From Terriglobia bacterium (GTDB lineage Bacteria > Acidobacteriota > Terriglobia > UBA7540), in NCBI GenBank assembly GCA_030041095.1, contig JASHON010000028.1, positions 1-64,000 of the forward strand: 64,000 nt of DNA, in the 5' to 3' direction. Positions 58,979 to 64,000 of the stretch are shown here, one piece after another (position 1 is the first letter of the stretch; each line of letters starts with the position of its first letter). The position numbers and the translations under genes are program-made. The notes under the pieces are model-generated. The model saw nothing but the letters and a program-made list of their open reading frames with translations. It ran no database searches and was not told the origin of the DNA.

Positions 58979-59953
58979 TCATTTTTGAGTCCTACTGGAG
59001 TTCTGCGAGAGCAGGTCTCGACGGGAGAGCGCCGCTCTTCCTAACTGCCGCGCGTTCCGCGGACTATCCATCACGGTTTCCACAAAATCGCCCAGTTCTC
59101 TCGCGGTGAACTTGTTTCCTTCGATGTTGGCTGCCAAGTCTCCCCGGCGGTTGATGATGACCGTATGCAGCGAATGGGTCATCATGCCCATATCCTGCCA
59201 ATACTCGACGCCAAACATGCTGGTCACTTTCTTAACCTCAGGCGCCGGGCCGGTCAGGAAATGCCACGACGCAGGGTTAGCATTCCAAATGCTGCCGTAC
59301 CGGGTTAAATCTGCCGGTCGATCGTGGTCCGGATCGAGGGTTACGGTCAGTAGAATCAGGCTGCGGCCCATCTGGTTTTTGAAACGCCGCTGAAGAAGGC
59401 CAAAGTTGTTGGAGAGACGAAAGCAGAAATTCGGCAGCGGGCAGCGTGTGTAGACGAAATCTACAGCCACGACTTTGCCGGCGAACTGGGACAGCGCCAC
59501 GCGGCGCCCGGTCTGATCGGTTAAGGAAAAGTCAGGCACGTGCTGGCCAACAGCCAGCGCCGCTCCGGCCGAGGGATTCTTTGCAAGAACCTTGTTCAGC
59601 ACTGCCAGACGGCACGCATCCAGGGGATCAGTCTGAAGGCTTTCGAAATGGCGAATGCGGACGTTTTCGGCATACGAGTCTCTTGGGGTTACCACCAGGG
59701 TGAAGTCCACCATCATGCCCGGCCGCAGACCGTCGAGCTGCTTAGGATCGCGGACAGGCAAAGGCATGACCATGGCATCCATGTAACCCGGTATTTCCTG
59801 AGCGGATACGACGAACATCGTCTGCTTCCGATTCACTTTCAATACGAGTCCGGTGGCAGCGTGTTGTTGCGCTGTCCATGCCGGCAAAACGGAGAGAACC
59901 AGCAGAGCCGCGATCGCTACTCCCCGTTCGATAAGCCAGACTCTCTGTCTCAT
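58979..59953 (-). CDS. SCO1/SenC-family protein with N-terminal copper-binding-like domain
   Basis: 324 residues. A signal peptide or anchor spans about 10-28. Residues 30-95 form a CusF-like small barrel (TGLVLKVNRKQTMFVVSAQE, with a Met/His-poor but YMDAMVMPLPVRD region). From about 140 there is a thioredoxin-like SCO domain; the Cys pair is spaced C-x5-C (RCPLPNFC), wider than the C-x3-C of classical SCO1, with the later His in MTHSLHTVIINRRG. SCO proteins deliver copper to cytochrome oxidase or act as thiol oxidoreductases. The oxidase is not nearby. It is divergent from the next gene's MITE-like insertion. Confidence 0.85.
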   Translation of the reverse strand: MRQRVWLIERGVAIAALLVLSVLPAWTAQQHAATGLVLKVNRKQTMFVVSAQEIPGYMDAMVMPLPVRDPKQLDGLRPGMMVDFTLVVTPRDSYAENVRIRHFESLQTDPLDACRLAVLNKVLAKNPSAGAALAVGQHVPDFSLTDQTGRRVALSQFAGKVVAVDFVYTRCPLPNFCFRLSNNFGLLQRRFKNQMGRSLILLTVTLDPDHDRPADLTRYGSIWNANPASWHFLTGPAPEVKKVTSMFGVEYWQDMGMMTHSLHTVIINRRGDLAANIEGNKFTARELGDFVETVMDSPRNARQLGRAALSRRDLLSQNSSRTQK

Positions 59954-60025: not shown

Positions 60026-60156
60026 CAGGCTGCGGAAAAACTCGGCGCCGCCGCGAATGGTGCGCCGGCATCTTGCCGGCCTCCGTTGAATTGAAGGGAG
60101 TTGCCGGCTGTAAGCCGGCGCTACGTCATCTTCCAAAAGACTTTTTTCGCAGCCTG
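60026..60156 (-). mobile_element. 131-bp MITE-like element, copy 4
   Basis: Best terminal inverted repeat of the set: CAGGCTGCGGAAAAACTC at the left and GACTTTTTTCGCAGCCTG at the right (4 mismatches or fewer by eye). The core is as in copies 1-3. The right end overlaps the 3' end of the CRTAC1-type gene and supplies its stop codon (TAG at 60123-60121). Confidence 0.75.
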
Positions 60157-62772
60157 TACCGCCGCCTCGCGCGGGAGCCGCATCGAGAGCTGAGGACGGT
60201 CCAGTTTTTCGTAACGTTTGGCGAACTCTTTGATTTCAATAAACTGGTTCGTGTGGAGGCTTGAGAAGGTCTGCCGTGTGTTGCTCACCGGCCACCATAT
60301 CTCAAGCTTTTCAATCCGCGCTGATGGGCCCAGCCCGATGTGTTGCTCTAACGGGTTCGCGCCGAAAGAGCCCCCGCTTCCCACCGTGCGGTAGATGGAC
60401 CGGGAGTCATGCCCTGCGTTCTTCACGGTGATTGCAATCCGCGCTCCCATAGCGGCGCGGTTAGTCTTCACGCCCACCAGTTTCAGCGCGATCCAGTCGT
60501 TGGCATTGCCCGGGTTCTTGAAAAATCGGAAGGCGTGCTTGTCGCCGGGCGTGGCTCCGCCGATCACGGTAAGGATGTCTTCGTGTCCTGCATGGCTCAT
60601 GTCAGCAAAGGCAACGCCGTGTCCCTTGTGCAGCTCCCCCGTTCCCGATGAAGCCGTGATATCCACGAATCTCCTGCCTCCGTCATTACGGAGCAACACG
60701 TTGGGCACCAAGGCGCCGTAGGATGGGTCTCCAGTCCCAAGGTAGATGTCGAGAAACCCGTCGTTATCGACGTCGCCGAAATTAGCGCCCATTGGCATGA
60801 ATACCTTGTCCAGGCCCACCAGGTTCGTGACGTCGTCGAACGTTCCGTCCCTCATGTTTTTGTAGAGCTTCAGAGTTACTGCGTTGTGTGGGAGGCCGAG
60901 ATAGGTCCTCAGGGTCTCGTCGACCGAGGTGTAGTAGCTGGTTGCGAACAGATCGGGCCAGCCATCGTTGTCGTAATCGAAGAACCAGGTTGCGAAGCTT
61001 TGCCCGAACGGATCCCGCACACCGGCCTCCCGGGCGACTTCCCGAAACGTGCCGTTGTGCTGGTTATGGTAGAGGAAGTTGCTGCTGCCAATATTGGTGA
61101 CGTAGAAGTCTACATATCCGTCGTTATCGTAGTCTTCGGCCACCACTCCTTTGGTGAAAGCAATTCGGTCCACTCCGGCGGCGGCGGAGATGTCCTCAAA
61201 CGTTCCGTCGCCCTTGTTCAGGAAAAGATGGCTGGGCCCACGCTCGTTGCCAACGAATAGGTCCAGCAAGCCGTCGTTATTGATGTCGGCCCAGACGCCC
61301 GTTTGCGTGCCGATTAAGTGGGTGAGGCCCGCCTGGCGCGTCACGTCGGTAAAAGTCCCGTCGCCATTACCCCGCAACAGCGACATCGGCTGCGGGTATT
61401 CCCACGCTCCGCGCAGTACCAGTATGTCCAGGCATCCGTCGCTGTTATAATCCGTCTGGATAACATTCAGCCCGCCCAAAAAATCTTCCAGGCCCGCGTG
61501 CTGCGTGCGATCTGAGAAGGTTCCGTCTCCGTTGTTGTGGAAGTAGCGGAGGGCTGCTTGAGAGTCAAAACTGGACACGACAACATCAAACAGGCCGCGA
61601 TTCTCGAAATCATCGACAATGATTCCCCCGCAGTCCGAAAAGTTATTCAGGCCCACGCTGGGCGCCACGTCAACAAATCGCCCGACCGACTGCTTCGACT
61701 CGAACCCCGTCAACGGGAACAGGAACTCCTTCGGGACCCCGGCGGGGTACTTCCCAAGGGTCATATAAGTGAGATTGAGCAGCCACCTCGCCTCGAGGTT
61801 GTTTCGATCCTGGCCGAGATACTTCAAGAAGCGCTCCAAAGCCTCTTGTGAATCCCCTGTCACCGCATAGCGCAGCTTCGAAGACATCGGAAAGAGACAT
61901 TTCTCCCCCGGATTGCGGTATACGTCGTTTTCCATTTCGGATTTGTGCAGGTAGGCAATTCCCAGCACTTCGTCCAGGTAATGAGCCATCTTAGGTGAAG
62001 CGGGCTGGGCAAGTTGATAGCTGGCCCTCCACTGCTCGATCGCCTTCGCCATGTCTCCCTGGAAGGCATAAAGTTGGGCCAAAAGATAGCGCAAGTGAAT
62101 GGTCGTCTCAGCCGGTGGATCATTCGGACTCGCGGGATCCAGGATGCCCTGTACTCGTTTTATTGCGCTGGGAACGGAATTTTGGTGAATTTCTGCGATG
62201 GTTACTAAGTTCCGATCCCAACCCGCTGGCTTATCAGGAAAATCGAGAAAAACCGTTTCCGCCTCTACCAAACCGTCCACGTCGGGTCCGTAGAGGATGG
62301 CTCCAGGCCCAGTCAAAGAAAGGAGACGGCGAGGGCTTCCTTCGTCTGCGGCTCGCGGAGCCTGGCGGTCAATCTTCAGAATGGCATAGCCCTCTGGAAT
62401 TCTGACGATAGGACTAACCTGCCCCGGTGCAAGCCCTTTCAAAGCATCTCTCAGCTCCGGTCGCAACTCCGCGGGGTCAAGCACTCCAAGATAACCGCCT
62501 TGCCTCGCGGTGGGATCGAGCGACCTCTCCATGGCGAGCGAGGCAAAGTCCTCCCCCTCCTTTAGCCGGTCCAGAATCTGCTTCGCTCCGGCGAGAGAAT
62601 CCACCACGATTACCCGTAACGGAATCTTACCCGGAGGTGCGCTCCGCGAGGTTTGTAGCGAAGCCTGAGCGAAAACCGTCGCCGGAGCAGCCATTGCGCC
62701 ACCCAATGTAATCGCGCCCTTGAAGAGCAGTGATCGCCGGGAGAGCAGGGTCTTTGTATCTGCGGTCGACAT
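60121..62772 (-). CDS. CRTAC1-type protein: Tat leader, PpiC domain, FG-GAP repeats, ASPIC/UnbV
   Basis: 883 residues. The Tat-type leader is SRRSLLFKGAITLGGA and a hydrophobic run. Residues 55-135 are a PpiC-like parvulin domain (AKQILDRLKEGEDFASLAME, GGYLGVLDPAELRPEL). A helical, TPR-like middle follows (about 175-345). From about 355 there are many FG-GAP/VCBS-type Asp-rich repeats with Ca-binding DxDxDG-like loops (ADINNDGLLDLFVGNERGPS, DYDNDGYVDFYVTNIG), and an ASPIC/UnbV domain ends it. Exported, with an adhesion or enzyme-maturation role unknown. The last residues before the stop are encoded inside a 131-bp element. Confidence 0.85.
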   Translation of the reverse strand: MSTADTKTLLSRRSLLFKGAITLGGAMAAPATVFAQASLQTSRSAPPGKIPLRVIVVDSLAGAKQILDRLKEGEDFASLAMERSLDPTARQGGYLGVLDPAELRPELRDALKGLAPGQVSPIVRIPEGYAILKIDRQAPRAADEGSPRRLLSLTGPGAILYGPDVDGLVEAETVFLDFPDKPAGWDRNLVTIAEIHQNSVPSAIKRVQGILDPASPNDPPAETTIHLRYLLAQLYAFQGDMAKAIEQWRASYQLAQPASPKMAHYLDEVLGIAYLHKSEMENDVYRNPGEKCLFPMSSKLRYAVTGDSQEALERFLKYLGQDRNNLEARWLLNLTYMTLGKYPAGVPKEFLFPLTGFESKQSVGRFVDVAPSVGLNNFSDCGGIIVDDFENRGLFDVVVSSFDSQAALRYFHNNGDGTFSDRTQHAGLEDFLGGLNVIQTDYNSDGCLDILVLRGAWEYPQPMSLLRGNGDGTFTDVTRQAGLTHLIGTQTGVWADINNDGLLDLFVGNERGPSHLFLNKGDGTFEDISAAAGVDRIAFTKGVVAEDYDNDGYVDFYVTNIGSSNFLYHNQHNGTFREVAREAGVRDPFGQSFATWFFDYDNDGWPDLFATSYYTSVDETLRTYLGLPHNAVTLKLYKNMRDGTFDDVTNLVGLDKVFMPMGANFGDVDNDGFLDIYLGTGDPSYGALVPNVLLRNDGGRRFVDITASSGTGELHKGHGVAFADMSHAGHEDILTVIGGATPGDKHAFRFFKNPGNANDWIALKLVGVKTNRAAMGARIAITVKNAGHDSRSIYRTVGSGGSFGANPLEQHIGLGPSARIEKLEIWWPVSNTRQTFSSLHTNQFIEIKEFAKRYEKLDRPQLSMRLPREAAVQAAKKVFWKMT

Positions 62773-63306
62773 GCGTGTAAAGCCAGAGCATGACTCTACG
62801 GGAGGCGGACAATTCGGACAATAGGGTAGAGTTCCTACAAAACCAGGAACGATTGCCTAATGGCTGGGGAGGGCAGCAGGTCTTTAGCGAGTAACGCGAC
62901 GAACTGTAACGCTCGTCTCGGAAGATGCGGGTATTGGGCCTGCGGCATGCGTCAATGGGCTTATGCGACTCGCATGGTGAGGATAAGCCATCATGGTAAC
63001 TGTATTTATTCGCTCGACTAGTAGATATGCATATTGACCGGTCCTTCGCTTGTAACTATGCTTTTGCGGTGCTTCATGTGCTCTTGACACCAAGCGACGA
63101 GCATCACGTCCATCCCGCAGCTTGCTATCGCTGGCTGAAACACTTCTTTGAGAAGGGGCGGCCCCTGGTGAGATAAGCAGGTGGAAACCGGCGACCTCAG
63201 CATGGCCTTTCTGGAAGCCAAGCTGACGAAGTAAGGGCGAGGCGCGGGCCGAAATGTCTTTTGAGGAAGCGAGCGTGTTGAATTTCAATGCCGGAGGGAC
63301 GCTATT
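62773..63306. other. Intergenic region upstream of the DUF3179 gene
   Basis: 534 bases with no convincing gene; long minus-strand frames here (62884-63315) show no known domain. The ribosome site of the following gene (GGAGGG) is at 63293-63298. Confidence 0.4.
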
Positions 63307-64000
63307 ATGAAACACTCAAAGAAAGTCTTCGGATATTATGGGTTGCTAATAGCGACGCTTCTAGTCTCGTTTTTCTGCCTGGCGTATCCCCTTTACGTCA
63401 TTCGACCGTTCCGTTACCAGGGACCACGCGAGTTGGTGGCGGCCTTAGCGCTCATGGGTGTTCGGCCGCCTATTGAGGTTGTCTGCGTCGTGCTGGCCCT
63501 GGCAGGGCTGGCTTGGTATTGGCGGCTGGAGCCGCGGCGCTGGCGTCGCATCGCTTCGGTGTGTGGGACCTTCTTTGTGTGTGCTTTCGCGGTTCTGTCA
63601 CGGGTCAACGTTTACGAACTAATGTTCCATCCGGACGTGCATCCTGTTTTTGCGGCCGTACGGCAAGTCAAACTGGACCCAGACGACAACGTTCTGGCGG
63701 TCAAGCTTGGAGGCAATGCCCGCGCCTATCCCGTCCGGCTGATTGCCTACCATCACATCATTAACGACGTGGTAGGCGGGGTTCCGATCGCCGCGACCTA
63801 TTGAACGCTCTGTCACACCGGTCTGGTGTGGAGACGGGAAACAGGCGGTTTAGTTCTAACCTTTCATCTTGCCGGCATCAACAATCAGAATTTTCTGATG
63901 CGGGACGATCAGACCGGCTCCTACTGGCAGCAGATCACGGGCGCAGCCGTTTCTGGTCCACTGAAAGGCCGGCGGCTAATTTTAGTCCCGTCCGATGAGT
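63307..64000 (+). CDS. DUF3179-domain membrane protein, probable selenoprotein (UGA at Cys position), cut by window end
   Basis: Codons 1-165 give a protein with about three N-terminal membrane segments (8-29, 47-67, 78-97) and the start of DUF3179: DDNVLAVKLGGNARAYPVRL, then IAYHHIINDVVGGVPIAATY. Codon 166 is TGA (63802-63804). The frame then continues to the window end with TLCHTGLVWRRETGGLVLTF, HLAGINNQNFLMRDDQTGSY and WQQITGAAVSGPLKGRRLIL, the normal DUF3179 continuation. In relatives the residue at codon 166 is the first Cys of a CxxC pair (ATY-C-x-x-C-HTG). A SECIS-like hairpin follows. So the product is best read as U-x-x-C, a selenoprotein redox motif. The start is ATG with GGAGGG nine bases upstream. 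It is partial at the right edge; function unknown. Confidence 0.8.
63814..63830 (+). promoter_or_regulatory. Candidate bacterial SECIS hairpin
   Basis: CACACC (63814-63819) pairs perfectly with GGTGTG (63825-63830) around a GGTCT loop (63820-63824); a further T-G wobble pair (63813/63831) is possible. The loop starts 15 bases after the UGA. The E. coli fdhF SECIS also presents GGUCU in its apical loop at a similar distance (18 bases by my count from memory). Confidence 0.7.

Follow-up and report, generated by a model that had tools for sequence, protein, structure and literature searches.

The window analyzed here, a stretch of 64,000 nucleotides from a soil acidobacterium of the Terriglobia, ends within a gene of the DUF3179 family (PF11376) that carries an in-frame TGA codon, and the evidence presented below indicates that this gene encodes a selenoprotein, an explanation to which, taken as a whole, we assign a probability of about 0.93. 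Decoding of the UGA as selenocysteine (Sec), considered separately, is close to certain. In the proposed mechanism, SelB with Sec-tRNA(UCA), the machinery genes of which are present in the genome, would bind a GGUCU-looped hairpin lying 9 nt past the UGA, and Sec would be inserted at residue 166 instead of a stop; with selenium absent, the product would end at residue 165. The 424-aa protein would then be anchored to the inner membrane through three N-terminal helices and expose to the periplasm two tandem beta domains of predicted Rieske-like fold, where Sec166, paired with Cys169 and lying beside conserved His residues, would probably constitute the reactive centre of a thiol/selenol oxidoreductase.

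The DUF3179 gene, its UGA codon and the adjacent hairpin

The predicted selenoprotein CDS begins at an ATG at position 63307 of the plus strand, which is preceded by GGAGG, a probable ribosome-binding site read directly at 63293-63297 (+), 9 nt 5' of the ATG; at the same ATG begins the match with a Terriglobia MAG (L138), the nearest relative bearing a name. The first 231 of the 424 codons lie within the window (63307-64000) and the rest continues to the stop at contig position 64581. A Pfam scan matches the part within the window to PF11376 with an E value of 2.3e-35, and the whole gene scores 203 bits against a cut-off of 27, with the match spanning the TGA, so that the protein belongs to DUF3179. 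An earlier, sequence-only reading of this DNA had described an unshifted frame with DUF3179-like sequence on both sides of the TGA, and this is borne out by the Pfam match and by the translation, which proceeds as UTLCHTGLVW and then on into the contig beyond the window. Named relatives place the organism among Acidobacteriota of the Terriglobia/Bryobacterales type.

The TGA occupies positions 63802-63804 (+) as codon 166, the predicted Sec codon, and is followed by TGT for Cys169 (63811-63813, +), the second residue of a UxxC motif that is invariant in the subfamily alignments. After a 9-nt spacer, ACGCTCTGT (63805-63813, +), lies the predicted bacterial SECIS hairpin (63814-63830, +), comprising the 5' stem CACACC (63814-63819), the loop GGTCT (63820-63824) and the 3' stem GGTGTG (63825-63830), with one extra T-G pair possible below the stem (63813/63831). 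The perfect 6-bp hairpin initially noticed 9 bases past the UGA, with its GGTCT loop, had thus been located exactly to the base. Its fold energy is -9.2 kcal/mol alone and -13.6 kcal/mol in a 36-nt local fold that includes the lower stem; a competing fold arises when longer RNA windows are folded.

Published constraints for bacterial SECIS elements include an apical loop of 3-9 nt, an upper stem of 4-16 bp, a G within the first two loop positions in a G[G/U] pattern, 16-37 nt from the UGA to the loop and an energy of -7.5 kcal/mol or lower (PMC13188914). The window hairpin falls within these limits in its loop (5 nt), its stem (6 bp plus one possible U-G) and both energies given above, and its GGUCU loop follows the G rule, as do those of all 70 TGA genes compared below. 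Fifteen bases intervene between UGA and loop and the loop G is the 16th base, so that agreement with the 16-37 range depends on the counting convention. The hairpin by itself is no evidence for Sec, since a loosely defined SECIS-like hairpin follows 106 of the 1976 TGAs in the window (~5%); conservation in relatives is. The energy of the hairpin was likewise undistinctive in comparison with shuffled sequences (z about -1.3) and was not used.

Conservation of the hairpin and association with selenocysteine genes

The loop reads GGTCT in all 70 TGA genes compared (69 from named genomes and the window's own) and in none of ten TGC genes, which have GGGCT, GGCAT, GGGAT or GGCCT, and the stem CACACC/GGTGTG is near-invariant across the same 70 genes. 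A Gly codon is covered by the loop, and since GGT makes up just 12% of the Gly codons in the rest of these genes, its invariance indicates that selection acts on the RNA. The genes had been fetched with back-translated degenerate peptide patterns, a procedure which, we infer, should add no bias in synonymous codons. Within the window's clade 95.5% of the hairpin cells are paired and two pairs show compensatory change, including a C-G to G-C replacement in two genes (L198 and L210); covariation is modest here, there being hardly any variation in the hairpin. GGTCT is missing from three more divergent Sec genes (L076-L078), and the loop text is therefore not universal in the subfamily. The SECIS-like hairpin of the sequence-only reading is conserved, loop included, in relatives.

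In the other TGA clade, which includes a paralogue from the window's own genome (contig C55), the hairpin is placed differently and shows strong covariation; 91.9% of its cells are paired and 22 show double changes, a level reached by none of 500 shuffles, with all slid versions far lower. We had considered for the C55 gene a 9-nt spacer and 6-bp hairpin like those of the window, and rejected it because its relatives conserve a different hairpin, of 7 bp and 13 nt past the UGA, with compensatory changes. The latter is taken as the putative SECIS of the C55 gene.

The genome assembly (207 contigs, 95.5% complete) contains selA (1.2e-141), selB (4.1e-94), selD (1.2e-107) and a tRNA-Sec of 73 bits with the UCA anticodon, that is, all four genes whose search had been proposed as a check. 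Moreover, selD (contig C146, L025) has its own in-frame TGA near the start, in the frame ..MVKAAGUAAKLSP.., after which comes a hairpin of 9 bp with the loop GTATT, and the second DUF3179 gene (L004 5100-6648, minus strand) carries a single TGA, in the motif USYC, at the column of the window gene's TGA. This paralogue, which lies near a gene for a COX1-like membrane protein and has its TGA form also in two genomes of the same family, seems from its sequence to encode a product with a signal peptide instead of three helices. The genome therefore has at least three Sec candidates (the two DUF3179 genes and selD), and the suggestion that the organism uses selenocysteine is supported by selABCD together with the TGA codons of selD and the paralogue. 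Three matches to molybdopterin-oxidoreductases included no Sec form.

The DUF3179 gene is immediately followed, on the opposite strand, by a tRNA-Leu(CAA) (L003 2600-2687, -), which accounts for a 36.8-bit match to tRNA-Sec at this place. Another tRNA, of about 90 nt and 51 bits with the tRNA-Sec model (contig C199:13227-13316, -), is a tRNA-Cys (GCA) with a 6-bp D stem, a long variable arm and U73, similar to the selC* tRNA-Cys reported from other phyla (PMC7609411). No copy was found in the 60 relatives searched, and its location at a contig end makes contamination possible.

Across 396 genomes of the phylum Acidobacteriota, DUF3179 is present in 133 and selA in 252 (64%). Among the matches listed, the TGA form occurs in 46 genomes, 43 of which have selA at E <1e-60 and the other three a tRNA-Sec; with a 64% background the binomial probability of at least 43 of 46 is about 3e-6, relatedness being ignored. 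In the window's subfamily, defined by xLCHTG[LIV]VW, selA is found in 21 of 21 TGA genomes compared vs none of ten class-mates with Cys (TGC), and tRNA-Sec was not found in these ten genomes either. A 51-bit tRNA-Sec match in a Cys genome (G130) is a tRNA-Ser. Genomes of the same genus and of the same family keep both TGA and hairpin, and a same-genus relative has the same hairpin as the window rather than a stop with a separate downstream ORF, the situation that had been named as contrary evidence; nor was any other of the refuting outcomes named there observed. The position of the UGA at the first Cys of a CxxC motif was also read correctly, for relatives lacking Sec genes have Cys in the column of codon 166.

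A tree of 115 rows (110 subfamily members and five outgroup rows) clarifies the direction of change. The column has TGA in 90 members and TGC in 20, and the Cys forms make up two groups nested inside the Sec forms, amounting to two Sec-to-Cys changes in all: the larger is a clade dominated by Acidobacteriaceae and including Edaphobacter, the smaller a single Bryobacterales MAG. By this tree, Sec is the original state of the window's subfamily and the Cys forms are replacements. The initial description of Sec replacing the Cys of a CxxC pair is right about the column and is refined as to direction. Several of the Cys genes retain the stem but not the loop sequence, and this resembles a SECIS in decay.

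The same data decide between other readings of the TGA. Standard annotation ends the frame at this codon, and a further ORF, starting with GTG, is present downstream, features compatible with a true stop, leaving a pseudogene or a 165-aa product and, beyond it, a relic or a separate gene; yet the codon is TGA in 90 subfamily members with intact coding downstream, recurs both within the genus and in further families, invariably at the Cys column, and is accompanied by the Sec machinery wherever checked, so that we regard a true stop as very improbable. Decoding by a suppressor tRNA, as Trp, or as Cys by the tRNA-Sec-like tRNA-Cys described above is extremely unlikely: the genome does hold that tRNA, but its anticodon is GCA and it was not found in 60 relatives even though the TGA is a general feature, the use of TGA follows the presence of selA and tRNA-Sec, and no hairpin would be needed. 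Conversion of TGC or TGT to TGA by a sequencing or assembly error, to which the fragmentation into 207 contigs might lend some credence, has a negligible chance of being correct, given that the same TGA and loop recur in independent genomes (named records between L138 and L216) and that the C55 paralogue also has a TGA.

Predicted topology, fold and function

The AlphaFold2 model of L138, the closest named homologue with 87% identity, has a pLDDT of 93.4 and shows three N-terminal helices (2-32, 41-75 and 79-98) followed by two beta domains; the corresponding predicted membrane helices of the window gene lie approximately at 63310-63600 (+). An Arg-rich WYWRLEPRRWRR loop precedes helix 3. This loop, the positive N-terminus and the odd number of helices suggest that the DUF3179 domains should be periplasmic, and a membrane-anchored periplasmic protein is thus quite likely.

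Modelled alone, domain 1 has a pLDDT of 92.0, and its best 50 rows in VIA-align are all Rieske proteins, with Z up to 10.0; for matches to Rieske ferredoxins and oxygenase domains, Z is about 9-10, with about 92-98 residues aligned at 2.6-3.6 angstrom. In the full model, residues 294-420 likewise have Rieske oxygenases as structural matches. The Foldseek E-values for domain 1 are 0.06 and weaker and the comparison of DUF3179 with Rieske profiles revealed no similarity (hhalign probability 0.2), for which reasons we call the domain Rieske-like and not a Rieske protein. The Pfam scan contained no Rieske match and the cluster ligands CxH...CxxH are absent, the invariant residues of alignment A5 being YHH and CxxCH. 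DUF3179 is predicted to have a tandem Rieske-like fold lacking the Rieske cluster ligands, and the aligned ranges would place its UxxC before the cluster-binding loops.

The motif and the predicted fold make a redox function through Sec reasonably probable. The idea of a CxxC-type redox pair agrees with the invariant UxxC of the window's subfamily but does not extend family-wide, where the second Cys is often absent: it is missing in 19 of 51 distinct TGA sequences sampled (UxxA in 12, UxxT in four, and V, D and S in one each), suggesting that Sec itself, not the pair, is the essential element. Sec166 could alternatively serve as a metal ligand or lone nucleophile in the Rieske-like domain and not as half of a redox pair, which is the main rival to a periplasmic Sec-dependent oxidoreductase. 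The sequences without the second Cys, the exclusively Rieske matches among the best 50 for domain 1 and the Tyr-His-His and His after UxxC, invariant in the window's subfamily, would fit such a role; the UxxC, invariant in the same subfamily, the missing CxH/CxxH ligands and the profile comparison argue against it, and on balance we find it rather unlikely. A tentative and doubtful extension is that these proteins form a new class of periplasmic selenoenzyme, with tandem Rieske-like domains that have lost their Fe-S ligands and in which Sec, with nearby His and often no resolving Cys, would be the reactive or metal-binding centre.

No sequence match was found in the PDB or NCBIfam, and no neighbouring gene is conserved across the DUF3179 family. 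The window also encodes, on the minus strand, a protein in which a CusF-like copper domain is joined to SCO1/SenC, with TRCPLPNFC in its active-site region (58979-59953), and an unusual fusion protein that has a signal-like region at its N-terminus and combines a PPIC rotamase domain, FG-GAP repeats and ASPIC/UnbV (60121-62772).

Comparison with known selenoproteins and Rieske proteins

The analysis corrects how a gene is annotated that is truncated at its UGA by standard pipelines, and provides a structural lead on a protein family of unknown function. It further establishes Sec machinery as common in Acidobacteriota, selA being present in 252 of the 396 genomes sampled, and offers natural replicates of Sec-to-Cys replacement within one family, SECIS hairpins decaying in step with the loss of Sec genes. 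Sec DUF3179 is old and widespread in this phylum.

DUF3179 has already been listed as a UxxC/T selenoprotein family, in keeping with the statement of the sequence-only reading that seleno-forms were annotated elsewhere; the entries, credited to work on an Olavius algarvensis symbiont, give motif and accession but no function in the passages located in two reviews (PMC9312934, PMC13188914), in which text searches also found no mention of Acidobacteria or Acidobacteriota. The proteins described here share with those listed the Pfam family, the in-frame UGA and Sec as the first residue of UxxC/T, and differ in coming from Acidobacteriota and in the UxxA/V/S/D forms of the wider family. Within the literature searched, the following points are new: how abundant this selenoprotein is in Acidobacteriota, the loss of Sec on two occasions together with hairpin decay, the existence of UxxA/V/S/D forms, and the fold prediction.

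The window hairpin resembles the SECIS of E. coli fdhF, whose loop text is likewise GGUCU, in lying just past the UGA within the coding region and in having a small loop with GGU; it differs in its spacing, at the short end with 15 nt between, and in a stem without the bulged U of fdhF. Compared with Rieske ferredoxins and oxygenase domains (such as 2de5, 2qpz and 3c0d), finally, DUF3179 shares the predicted fold of domain 1, whereas it has no CxH...CxxH ligands, contains two domains in tandem and possesses the UxxC motif.
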